Positions 19,424 to 59,206 of a DNA stretch of 64,000 bases are shown here, piece after piece (the first letter of the stretch is position 1; each line of letters opens with the position of its first letter). Origin of the DNA: a bacterium (GTDB lineage Bacteria; Pseudomonadota; Alphaproteobacteria; Rs-D84); NCBI GenBank assembly GCA_014803525.1, contig JAAVBP010000001.1, positions 1-64,000 of the forward strand. The letters run 5' to 3'. The position numbers were made by a program, and so were the translations under genes. The notes beneath the pieces are model-generated. The model was not told the DNA's origin and searched no databases. It saw nothing but the letters and a program-made list of their open reading frames with translations.

Positions 19424-19635
19424 AAAATATTTTCCCCTATTGTTGTAAAAAATAAAAGACACGCATTATGTGCGTGTCGGTTTAAAAATTTTGATTACGG
19501 TTATGCATATATGCGCCGCACATCAAAATTACGTGGGTCCCATATGGGATTATCCGCGCCAAAGATTCAGTCGGACTGGTTGTTCTCATCCGACTGAAAC
19601 TTGGGATTAAAAATGCCCATGGCGGGCGCATATAA

Positions 19636-19658
19636 AAACCCCGCAGATGCGGGGTAAT
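19636..19658 (-). terminator. Terminator-like hairpin CCCCGCAGATGCGGGG
   Basis: Palindrome near the end of the 19661 ORF. Confidence 0.5.
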
Positions 19659-19660
19659 TA

Positions 19661-20032
19661 TTATTTTTTCTTGGCCGCTGGCTTTTTTGCCGCAACTTTT
19701 TTCGCTGCCGGTTTTGCAGCTACTTTCTTTGCAACCGGTTTTGCTGCTACTTTCTTCGCTGCCGGTTTCGCCGCAACTTTCTTCACTGCCGGTTTTGCCG
19801 CAACTTTCTTCGCTGCCGGTTTCGCCGCTACTTTCTTCGCAGCTGGTTTCGCCGCAACTTTCTTCGCTGCCGGTTTTGCCGCAACTTTTTTCGCAGCCGG
19901 TTTTGCAGCTACTTTCTTCGCAGCCGGTTTTGCCGCAACTTTTTTCGCAGCTGGTTTTGCTGCTACTTTTTTCGCAGCCGGTTTTGCTGCTGTCTTTTCA
20001 GCAACTTTTTTCTTGCCAAACAGAAATAGCAT
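19661..20032 (-). CDS. Ala/Lys/Pro-rich repeat protein (AAKKVAAKP)n, histone H1-like
   Basis: About 11 tandem 27-bp units encoding (A/V)AKKVAAKP. Confidence 0.65.
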   Translation of the reverse strand: MLFLFGKKKVAEKTAAKPAAKKVAAKPAAKKVAAKPAAKKVAAKPAAKKVAAKPAAKKVAAKPAAKKVAAKPAAKKVAAKPAVKKVAAKPAAKKVAAKPVAKKVAAKPAAKKVAAKKPAAKKK

Positions 20033-20135
20033 TCGTCTCTCCTTTTACTTTTTGGACAGAACAAATTTTTTTGTTCTTACTGTTTATTTTATCTGAAACC
20101 GCAAAAATAGTAAAGGAGAAAGTGCATATTTTTTT

Positions 20136-25928: not shown

Positions 25929-26051
25929 ACCAACGCCAACTTGTCGTCATTGCAAGTTGGATGCCTTGCAGATACGGCTATCCCGCAAGAACCACCCTGC
26001 CCGCTATGTTGGCGGGGTGGTTTAATATTTGCAATTCAGAAAATAATCCGT

Positions 26052-26215
26052 TATAATATGCGTGCATCGGGTGATGACCGATGCGGGGCTTAACAACCTC
26101 GGTAATCAAAATTCTCCAACCGTGGTTGGAGGGCTGTGATATATCTGAATAAACAGCGCTATTGATTACATAGTTGTTAACCTCCAACCGTCTCTCATCA
26201 AGACGGGCTTTTTTT
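26052..26215 (+). ncRNA. Structured leader RNA, copy A (terminator ending)
   Basis: TATAAT at 52-57; hairpin 64-84; long-range stems 90-97/173-180 and 102-109/162-169; hairpins 114-131 and 133-157; terminator 188-206 plus T7. Same architecture in copy B. Confidence 0.75.
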
Positions 26216-26242
26216 ATTAACAAAAAGTAAGGAGAAGAAAAA

Positions 26243-26464
26243 ATGGCAAAAACAATAATAATCAGCGCAGACTATTTCGGAACCGGAATCCAGATGGCGC
26301 GCCAGCTGGACGGTATCACACCAGAACAGATGGCACATCTGTTGGATTGTGATACCAAGATGCTGCATCGGTACGAGGCCGGCCTGGAACTATTGCCCAA
26401 AGCCGTATTGCGGCGCGTATTTCGATGCGCCGCCAAAATGGATGCCGCGATGGAAAACGTGTAA
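26243..26464 (+). CDS. Small HTH-type protein
   Basis: GIQMARQLDGITPEQMAHLLDCDTKMLHRYEAGLELLP; RBS AAGGAGAAG. Confidence 0.6.
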   Translation: MAKTIIISADYFGTGIQMARQLDGITPEQMAHLLDCDTKMLHRYEAGLELLPKAVLRRVFRCAAKMDAAMENV

Positions 26465-29108: not shown

Positions 29109-29193
29109 GGCCCCGTGGCGGAATTGGTAGACGCGCTTGACTCAAAATCAAGTTCTGCAAGGAGTGTCGGTTCGAGTCCGACCAGGGCCACCA
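29109..29193 (+). tRNA. tRNA-Leu(CAA), CCA encoded
   Basis: TTGA-CTCAAAA-TCAA anticodon arm; GGTTCGAGTCC T-loop. Confidence 0.9.
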
Positions 29194-29248
29194 GAATAGA
29201 AAGCACCCCGAATGGGGTGTTTTTTATTCTGTGTATCTGGGCGGACGA
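29180..29248 (+). repeat. 69-bp direct repeat, copy 1 (tRNA-Leu 3' end plus terminator)
   Basis: Matches 29332..29400 with one mismatch. Confidence 0.9.
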
Positions 29249-29254
29249 GAAGAG

Positions 29255-29331
29255 TCCGAAAACAAGTAGGCGAGACAAACGAAGTACAGTCGAACCGCCA
29301 CGGTTTCCCCGCAGACGCCCAAGCGGCGAGG
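29255..29331 (+). repeat. tRNA-linked core repeat, copy at tRNA-Leu(CAA)
   Basis: CCGAAAACAAGTAGGCGAGACAAACG...CACGGTTTCCCCGCAGACGCCCAAGCGGCGAGG; homologous to 35193..35267. Confidence 0.8.
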
Positions 29332-29400
29332 GACCAGGGCCACCAGAATAGAAAGCACCCCGGATGGGGTGTTTTTTATTCTGTGTATCTGGGCGGACGA
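29332..29400 (+). repeat. 69-bp direct repeat, copy 2
   Basis: GACCAGGGCCACCAGAATAGAAAGCACCCCGGATGGGGTGTTTTTTATTCTG... Confidence 0.9.
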
Positions 29401-29583: not shown

Positions 29584-31803
29584 ATGCGCAAGTTATTGAT
29601 TCTATTGGGTTTTGTTGGCGGTTTTATATGTAATTCTGCGCGCGCGGCAGAAATGGTTAATGTAGAATACATCCACCTGCTGATTGAACAAAAATGGGGA
29701 ATAACTGTACCGTACAATCCATCTGTTACTAATCCAAAGGTCGCGGCGAATATGGAATATTTACTGGGGATGGTGGATATTGCGAACAAACGGTTGAATG
29801 GCGATGCGACAACAGACTATTTGCACAGCGAATATGCGACCAAACAGGCCGCTGATACCGTCGCTGCAATTGATGCGGCCGACCGCCTGATTAAGATAGA
29901 GCCGAAATTCTGGGTCACGACGACCGCCGATACGTCGGAATTTGAATTCAAAATGTCGGCCGCCGGCACGTTTATGGTTGACTGGGGTGATGGCACGCGC
30001 GACATAATCAAGCGTATAAACACAACCAAAGATACGTATTCGCACATATACACCGCGCCCGGCGAATACACAATCGGTATCGGCGGTTTTGCCACAGAGT
30101 ATAATGCAAATGACTATGTGGCGACCATATCATTTAGTGGCACAGATGGCGCGCCGAATACAACCGTTGCCGGAATATCGGGTGATCTGGGCGCGGTATT
30201 TCAGACAATTGGCAGCGGAACAAACTTTTCTACGCAGCCACGATTTTCAGAAACATTCGCACATTGTAAAAATTTAACAGGTACCATTCCGGAAAATTTA
30301 TTTGCAGGCCTTTCAGGTGCGCCGGTTGCACAAATGTTTCATAGAACGTTTTTAAATTGTAATGGACTGTCCGGCGCTATACCGGTTGGGCTGTTCAGTG
30401 GGATTGCCGGCGCGCCGGGTGCCATGACATTCAGCTCTACTTTTTCAGGGTGCAGTAATCTTTCCGGTGCAATTCCCGGGACGCTGTTCGCCAACATACA
30501 AGGCAAACCCCAGATTGGATTATTTTGGAATACGTTTAATGGCTGCTCCAAACTATCGGGTTCTATTCCTGCGGATTTGTTTGCCGGTATAAAGGGGGCA
30601 CCGGTACCATCGCTGTTCCATGGCACATTTCTTGGGTGCAATAATCTTACGGGCAGCATTCCCACAAATCTGTTTTCGGGAATCCAGGGCAAACCGGCAT
30701 CTTATATGTTCGGCTCTACTTTTTATGGATGTAATGGGTTAAGTGGTAATATCCCGGCGGACTTATTCGCCGGAATCACTGGGGTGCCGGCGTCTTTTAT
30801 GTTTAATGAGACTTTTAGAGAATGTTCCGGATTGACCGGCGGTATTCCGGCGACGCTGTTTGCAGGCATTACGGGGGCCCCGGCAGATAATATGTTCAGC
30901 GCCACGTTTAGAGATTGCACTAATCTGACTGATGAAATTCCGGGCGCGTTATTCGCGGGAATTTCTGGCGCACCAGCGGTCAGCATGTTTAGCAATACAT
31001 TTTACGGATGCAGCGGCCTCACCGGCCCAATTCCAGAAAAACTGTTTGGTAAATTATCTGGCGCACCAGCGGTCAGCATGTTTAACCATACATTTTACGG
31101 CTGCAATGGTCTCACCGGCCCAATTCCAGAAAAACTGTTTGGCACATTATCTGGCGCACCAGCACCAGGGATGTTTTATAATACATTTAACGGGTGCATC
31201 AATCTATCAGGTTCCATCCCAGAAAATCTGTTTGGTACATTTTCTGGCGCACCGGCGGCCAATATGTTTCAGGGTACTTTTAGTGGTTGCAGCGGGCTTT
31301 CAGGCCCAATTCCAGAAAAACTGTTTGGCACATTATCCGGCGTACCAGCAACAAATATGTTTGCCTTTACCTTTAATGGCTGCAGGGGTTTGTCTGGTTC
31401 CATACCCGAAAATCTGTTCGCGGGTATATCTGGCGCACCGGCGGCCAATATGTTTCAGGCCACATTTTACGGATGTAATAGCCTCACCGGTTCCATCCCA
31501 ACAAACCTGTTTGCGGGTATTAAGGGGGCACCGGCAGTCAATATGTTTCAGAGCACATTCTCCTATACCGGTGTTAACAGTATTCCAGAAAATCTGTTTG
31601 GCGATATATCCGGCCCAGCACAAGCAAATATGTTTGTAAGCACATTTTATCATTGCGCATCCTTGACTGGGCCGTCGGCACGTATAAACGGTAAATATTT
31701 ATACGAAATATGGCCGGATGCAACCGACGAACAGGTCGGCAAATGCTACTGCGAAGATACAAAACTGGATGATTATTCGGACATACTGACAACATGGAAA
31801 TAA
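29584..31803 (+). CDS. Secreted BspA/DUF285-like repeat surface protein
   Basis: Signal peptide, VDWGDGT domain, about 15 tandem 31-aa repeats (GxIPxxLFxGxxGAPAxxMFxxTFxGCxxLS). Confidence 0.8.
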   Translation: MRKLLILLGFVGGFICNSARAAEMVNVEYIHLLIEQKWGITVPYNPSVTNPKVAANMEYLLGMVDIANKRLNGDATTDYLHSEYATKQAADTVAAIDAADRLIKIEPKFWVTTTADTSEFEFKMSAAGTFMVDWGDGTRDIIKRINTTKDTYSHIYTAPGEYTIGIGGFATEYNANDYVATISFSGTDGAPNTTVAGISGDLGAVFQTIGSGTNFSTQPRFSETFAHCKNLTGTIPENLFAGLSGAPVAQMFHRTFLNCNGLSGAIPVGLFSGIAGAPGAMTFSSTFSGCSNLSGAIPGTLFANIQGKPQIGLFWNTFNGCSKLSGSIPADLFAGIKGAPVPSLFHGTFLGCNNLTGSIPTNLFSGIQGKPASYMFGSTFYGCNGLSGNIPADLFAGITGVPASFMFNETFRECSGLTGGIPATLFAGITGAPADNMFSATFRDCTNLTDEIPGALFAGISGAPAVSMFSNTFYGCSGLTGPIPEKLFGKLSGAPAVSMFNHTFYGCNGLTGPIPEKLFGTLSGAPAPGMFYNTFNGCINLSGSIPENLFGTFSGAPAANMFQGTFSGCSGLSGPIPEKLFGTLSGVPATNMFAFTFNGCRGLSGSIPENLFAGISGAPAANMFQATFYGCNSLTGSIPTNLFAGIKGAPAVNMFQSTFSYTGVNSIPENLFGDISGPAQANMFVSTFYHCASLTGPSARINGKYLYEIWPDATDEQVGKCYCEDTKLDDYSDILTTWK

Positions 31804-58767: not shown

Positions 58768-59019
58768 TTATCTGTGGCACATGCATGGCGGAATCCAATC
58801 ATCATCAAACAGTTGTTTTATATACTCTGCGTCTTTACCGGCGGCGTGCATAAATTGATATAATTGATATGCAGTCATTGTAACCATGCCCTTTTCCAGG
58901 GCAAAATATACACCCGGTGAAATGTGCATTTTGTCGGCAACCTTTTGCGGCATCAATCCTTTGCGGGCGCGACGCATGTGTTTTTTCAGTTTATCTTGAA
59001 ATTCTGCTTCTGTTTTCAT
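58768..59019 (-). CDS. Small HTH-like protein
   Basis: MKTEAEFQDKLKKHMRRARKGLMPQKVADKMHISPGVYFALEKGMVTM. Confidence 0.6.
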   Translation of the reverse strand: MKTEAEFQDKLKKHMRRARKGLMPQKVADKMHISPGVYFALEKGMVTMTAYQLYQFMHAAGKDAEYIKQLFDDDWIPPCMCHR

Positions 59020-59041: not shown

Positions 59042-59206
59042 AAATAAAAAGTCCGCATTGATGAGATGCGGTTGGAGGTTAGCTACTACAGTATCATAGT
59101 CCCGCTTATTTATATATGTCACGGGCCTCCAACCAACGTTGGAGTTTTTTGATACTGAAGGCAGCTACACCTCGCACCGGCCATCACCCGATGCATGGCC
59201 ATTATA
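59042..59206 (-). ncRNA. Structured leader RNA, copy B (terminator ending)
   Basis: Same order of elements as 26052..26215 with compensatory changes; TATAAT at the 5' end, terminator CCGCAT-CTCATCA-ATGCGG plus T5. Confidence 0.75.

Follow-up and report, generated by a model that had tools for sequence, protein, structure and literature searches.

What kind of RNA separates a TATAAT box from a small gene in the window (the whole 64,000-nucleotide stretch of DNA that was analysed), and what could it do there? The initial annotation had proposed a structured terminator-leader RNA, here copy A, with a first hairpin, long-range stems, inner stems, a terminator ending in seven T and a downstream HTH gene, and each of these parts was found where it had been placed (see table). 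The 163-nt stretch of copy A has a minimum free energy of -58.5 kcal/mol (z = -5.2), a value equalled by none of 200 shuffled sequences. The downstream gene is present, but its HTH nature has weak support, as its product matches Pfam HTH_31 below the curated cut-off (E = 9e-4). The layout itself had to be amended. A GGGG/CCTC element exists, but relatives carry CAGG/CCTG, TAGG/CCTA, GGAG/CTCC or TGGG/CCCA at this place, and because of this covariation the pairing of GGGG with a distal CCTC was dropped in favour of a local hairpin, Ha, with the first long-range strand as its loop. A further stem with the consensus CTAY/RTAG (P4) had been overlooked, and its loop holds the second long-range strand.

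Table. Parts of the RNA and adjoining genes in the window, as read from the sequence
Feature	Positions	Strand	Remarks
Promoter	26029-26057	+	TTGCAA 26029-26034, 17-nt spacer, TATAAT 26052-26057
P0 hairpin	26064-26084	+	loop TGATGA 26072-26077, able to kiss the terminator loop
Ha hairpin GGGG[CTTAACAA]CCTC	26085-26100	+	loop is address strand a1
Address strand a1, TTAACAAC	26090-26097	+	P1 partner is a' 26173-26180
Address strand b1, GTAATCA	26102-26108	+	P2 partner is b' TGATTAC 26163-26169
P3a local hairpin CTCCAAC/GTTGGAG	26114-26131	+	alternative partner of A5
A5, GGTTGGAGG	26124-26132	+	shared strand of the putative switch; GGW start, a motif shared with the RNase P site of C4
P3b hairpin GCTGT/ACAGC	26133-26157	+	AU-rich loop GATATATCTGAATAA
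P4 hairpin CTAT[TGATTAC]ATAG	26159-26173	+	loop is b'
Address strand a', GTTGTTAA	26173-26180	+	P1 with a1 26090-26097
A3, CCTCCAACC	26181-26189	+	pairs with A5 to close the core; its final 2 nt double as the first of the terminator stem
PT intrinsic terminator CCGTCT[CTCATCA]AGACGG	26188-26215	+	hairpin 26188-26206; T-run 26209-26215 (T7)
RBS AGGAG and gene of 73-aa small HTH protein	26230-26464	+	gene 26243-26464
Copy B, same RNA as copy A	59046-59196	-	R1 match, 158.7 bits
Gene of 83-aa protein behind copy B (MKTEAEFQDKLKKHMRRARKG..)	58768-59019	-	HTH-like by layout similarity only

Two copies, A and B, had initially been recognised. A DNA similarity search of the 1.08-Mb host genome recovered two dozen near-full-length copies, and R1, a covariance model built from 20 copies of this genome, found 35 at E < 1e-6 and 40 at E < 0.01, giving a family of about 35-40 members. 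The 83-aa protein encoded behind copy B had no match in Pfam or PHROG. Further homologues were present in 62 of the 99 genomes of the relatives search; 53 of 58 other genomes of the same genus matched, many with 15-31 copies among the matches listed. Pattern matches in named genomes came mostly from Alphaproteobacteria of gut, rumen and termites, among them 'Candidatus Enterousia'. The genus Candidatus Enterousia belongs to the order Rs-D84, has reduced genomes and probably depends on a partner (PMC12306168), and judging from near relatives we infer that the host of the window belongs to this clade. The core of the RNA was found in 34 of 387 genomes of a class-wide sample, representing 25 genera and mostly genomes of 1-2.5 Mb. 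At several sites two to four copies lie in tandem, with no gene in between at L034 (G000 C4:170338-171024), L255 (G000 C22:14868-15560) and L087, an arrangement comparable to tandem riboswitches. In the host genome (G000), the copy pairs C8:20176/C14:9954, C4:56422/C5:61168, C7:52500/C4:108911 and C1:26020/C5:47165 each have a common b1/b' code and different a1/a' strands, as if recombination had shuffled the address stems. No tmRNA was detected by ARAGORN near one copy (L032).

The proposed fold held up in an alignment of 20 copies of the host genome, in which 96.5% of cells were paired (85.8% in shuffles) and 119 cells showed double changes (38 in shuffles), while slid controls collapsed. 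The long-range stems P1 (a1/a') and P2 (b1/b') vary in sequence from copy to copy and nearly always keep their match: P1 was 99.5% paired with double changes in five of ten pairs, and the hypervariable but complementary P2 had double changes in all six. Pairing was complete in P3b (double changes in four of five pairs), in the terminator PT (double changes in two pairs) and in P4, which showed a U-A/C-G change in these copies and CAAT/ATTG and CTAC/GTAG variants in relatives; P0 was 98.6% paired. The suggested kissing contact between the P0 and PT loops also found backing, as column pair 14/137 was C-G in 12 copies, U-A in eight and broken in none. At least five complementary bases were present in 31 of 122 distinct P0/PT loop pairs (permuted mean, 8), and the contact is thus confined to some members.

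The claim of mutually exclusive folds concerns strand A5, which can pair with A3 to close the core (helix A) or with its local partner in P3a. A5 and A3 are invariant among the main copies of the host genome, so that this genome carries no covariation information on helix A. Among covariance model matches from other genomes, where helix A lies outside the model, both strands change and still pair (GGCTGGAGG/CCTCCAGCC, GCTGGAAG/CTTCCAGC, GGCCAGAAG/CTTCTGGCC, GATTGGAGG/CCTCCAATC and GGTTGGAGA/TCTCCAACC), and the P3a partner often changes along with them (CCAGC..GCTGG, CTCCCA..TGGGAG, CCAATC..GATTGG). Pattern-selected loci were left out of the helix A evidence because the pattern fixes both strands; a similar caveat applies to helix A in one set of counts, for which rows with at least eight of nine helix A pairs had been picked. 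P3a had a perfect local complement (7/7) in 145 of 199 copies, compared with 12% in shuffled sequences, and in 173 of 199 copies 2-4 nt of the terminator stem come from A3. The family hence has two mutually exclusive helices on one strand, of which one overlaps the terminator, and their separate preservation by compensation is best read as the trace left by a switch. A Shine-Dalgarno/anti-Shine-Dalgarno role of GGAGG/CCTCC was rejected, as relatives have GCTGGAAG/CTTCCAGC or GGCCAGAAG/CTTCTGGCC with pairing kept, and a leader peptide in the P3b region was rejected for lack of a conserved start or frame, as judged by eye.

The initial annotation knew of no described riboswitch with this layout, which is accurate for copy A: it had no match above threshold and no convincing sub-threshold match in Rfam, and none to sRNA-Xcc1 (RF02221) at E ≤ 10. 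Divergent copies, however, matched RF02221 with 39.5, 35.7 and 27.8 bits, and the same-genus genome G307 with 39.7 bits, all under the gathering cut-off of 53 bits; the 39.5- and 35.7-bit alignments span exactly A5-P3b-P4-a'-A3. Conversely, R2, a model of this core built solely from the window family, recovered 10 of 30 RF02221 loci at matching coordinates with E-values of 7e-11 to 3e-5, which are rough because the calibration was short. R2 found none of 14 C4 loci, so that the link to C4 proper is one of architecture, and the host genome has no RF01695 (C4) match. By score the family thus stands outside both RF02221 and RF01695; reciprocal model search points to kinship with sRNA-Xcc1 and layout to kinship with C4. 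The 220 nt upstream of sRNA-Xcc1 loci mostly contain an a1 hairpin and b1, usually followed by an intrinsic terminator and then the Rfam core, and behind this core the RBS often repeats a1 and b1 (in L278, CCGAAAA..CAAACAGC upstream and CCGAAAAGGAGCAAACAGCCATG downstream). At these loci (L259-L288) the Rfam model seems to span no more than the 3' half, and RF02221 is shown without a clan. RF01695 loci could be parsed alike: a hairpin loop holding a1 comes first, b1 and a terminator follow, the core contains the b' loop and a', and the RBS carries a2/b2. Genes behind RF02221 and RF01695 loci include those of SymE, BRO-N, KilA-N and Rha proteins; C4 is known to repress ant (PMC8198154), and in integron cassettes sRNA-Xcc1 precedes symE (PMC12444791). 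The a1/b1-core layout of the window RNA is that of the C4 antisense RNA, contrary to the unrelated riboswitch that the initial annotation had implied. With the sub-threshold RF02221 matches of divergent copies, this goes part of the way towards the link to a known Rfam family that the annotation had named as a refutation. The RNA thus belongs to a real, large family that is absent from Rfam as such and is kin to sRNA-Xcc1 and C4.

We favour, with somewhat better than even confidence, the reading that the window RNA is of the C4 type and has become an address-coded attenuator that acts in cis on transcription, placed mostly ahead of genes for small HTH and exported proteins. Its 5' half bears an address, with a1 in a hairpin loop and b1 in the next strand, and its 3' core (A5/A3, P3b, P4) bears the matching one, with b' in the P4 loop and a' before A3. 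In the P3a fold A3 would be free, and the terminator would form with the aid of the P0 kiss and keep the gene off; closure of the core would engage A3, weaken the terminator and allow read-through into the gene. Pairing of a1 with a' and of b1 with b' would set the balance between the folds and, because the codes are private to each copy, would insulate the copies from mutual interference. By analogy with C4, which RNase P cleaves at its GGW start and which takes its target specificity from a'/b' (PMC5320573), the 5' end of A5 may be an RNase P site. This attenuator reading draws support from covariation, which every helix shows within the genome and helix A and P3a show across genomes, from the leader position and the overlap of A3 with the terminator, and from other alphaproteobacterial orders, in which an opposing local hairpin and a terminator behind the core are present in most loci read. 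At L308, L310 and L315, from such orders, the RNA lies ahead of prepilin-like genes (GRSMVEMLG..). Tandem copies lacking an intervening gene and the failure of R2 to find any C4 locus count against it, as do nested energies, which, with pseudoknots ignored, have a median of -58.5 kcal/mol for the terminator fold and -50.7 kcal/mol with helix A forced. This median difference of 7.8 kcal/mol suggests that the leader is probably off by default, and the mechanism is least secure in its direction of control; with an overlap of 2-4 nt, the closed core may also weaken termination only partly.

A stand-alone, trans-acting, C4-like antisense sRNA of about 150 nt, which would repress another mRNA through a'/b', possibly after RNase P processing, is an unlikely alternative; the downstream gene would then be reached by read-through or be expressed independently. 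Such an sRNA would have its own promoter and terminator, and a -10-like box does precede 96% of copies (29% of random stretches); C4 and sRNA-Xcc1 are both expressed as free RNAs (PMC5320573, PMC2996969), and the tandem copies with no gene in between fit as well. Against it stands the constant short spacing to an RBS-bearing gene: where a gene could be called, the T-run is followed within 60 nt by a start codon with RBS in 89% of copies, compared with 6% of random positions, and this holds for 125 of 165 copies after removal of antisense duplicates. No a2/b2 target was found at the downstream RBS in a permutation test that was clearly positive for its controls (14 C4 and 30 sRNA-Xcc1 loci): matches to b averaged 4.58 in real and permuted data alike, and those to a were slightly raised (4.66 compared with 4.46). 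The address of copy A occurs nowhere else in the host genome (95.7% complete) apart from its own complement, and a trans target bearing it was therefore rejected. These two results argue for action in cis, and a free sRNA would also leave the A5/P3a/A3 switch, with its overlap of the terminator, without a role.

It is rather improbable that the attenuator is instead a ligand- or protein-sensing leader, an orphan riboswitch or attenuator built on a borrowed C4 fold, in which a metabolite or protein at the conserved AU-rich P3b loop decides between the folds. Two mutually exclusive folds tied to a terminator, the conserved unpaired AAUA/GAAUAA in P3b, and the occurrence of one leader type over many genes and in tandem would suit a sensor. 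Hypervariable yet matched a/b codes are unexpected in an aptamer, however, and no Rfam aptamer matched. By rough sequence criteria most downstream genes code for either small HTH proteins resembling Cro/C1 or exported proteins whose starts look like signal peptides, with no common metabolic theme. The host genome has no GGDEF domain, which argues against a c-di-GMP riboswitch, and this candidate was rejected. That the copies are remnants of a prophage or mobile cassette, a promoter-RNA-HTH unit spreading selfishly with no current regulatory role, is very unlikely: such units are near-identical (68-84% identity), several copies adjoin contig ends and relatives in other classes lie in a phage antirepressor context, but the helices show compensatory change, unrelated exported-protein genes follow the same RNA and the core extends over the 25 genera.

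Other repeats were noted in the window. At 19631-20062, a 27-bp tandem repeat (AAKKPAAKKVAAKP units) lies in a gene on the minus strand whose product is rich in lysine, alanine and proline and resembles histone H1. A 739-aa exported protein with 31-residue repeats (LSGSIPENLFAGISGAPAANMF) is encoded at 29584-31803, with five 93-bp repeat copies at 30869-31513. A 69-bp direct repeat, its copies 152 bp apart (29180-29400), immediately follows a tRNA-Leu gene.

In its widest form, which we advance tentatively and with slightly less than even confidence, the cis-acting attenuator would be a phage-style antisense immunity RNA that was rewired into dozens of self-addressed terminator switches throughout the genome, controlling surface proteins and small HTH regulators as a main regulatory layer of reduced-genome Alphaproteobacteria, and Rfam sRNA-Xcc1 would represent this architecture truncated to its 3' half. 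This would join the C4 phage antisense RNA, the integron-borne sRNA-Xcc1 and an unlisted leader family of about 40 copies in a 1-Mb genome, a link made neither in Rfam nor in the literature examined. If true, a phage antisense device has been put to new use by hosts as a cis-acting transcription switch with private codes, and very small genomes contain a set of nearly identical RNA regulators that are naturally insulated from each other. It also predicts that sRNA-Xcc1 uses a2/b2 to regulate its downstream gene (symE, antirepressors).

Among known systems, transcription-terminating riboswitches likewise combine a terminator with two helices competing for a shared strand, one local and one overlapping the terminator, but the window family differs in its variable private codes and in having no known aptamer or conserved ligand pocket. 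The C4-like Group 1 sRNAs of Acinetobacter baumannii share with it many chromosomal paralogues and variable a'/b' strands; they were proposed to be phage-derived, trans-acting sRNAs that match the Rfam C4 motif, as opposed to terminator leaders of host genes (PMC5320573). C4 of phages P1 and P7 (RF01695, in clan CL00128 together with c4-a1b1, RF03163) has the same arrangement of a1 in a hairpin loop and b1 ahead of a closed core with two hairpins, a b' loop, an a' strand and a closing strand that starts with GGW, whereas its closing helix is longer and it acts on a2/b2 at the RBS, which the window family lacks. Closest is sRNA-Xcc1, with which the family shares the core fold A5-P3b-P4-a'-A3 (closing helix, hairpin with AAUA/GAAUAA internal loop, second hairpin), the reciprocal model matches, a position ahead of a gene (symE or antirepressors in sRNA-Xcc1) and, in most sRNA-Xcc1 loci examined, the upstream half of a1 hairpin and b1 complementary to a' and the P4 loop. 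Those loci have a terminator that separates b1 from the core, and their RBS carries an a2/b2 repeat; in the window family, which is devoid of a2/b2, a local hairpin replaces the middle terminator and the terminator follows the core.
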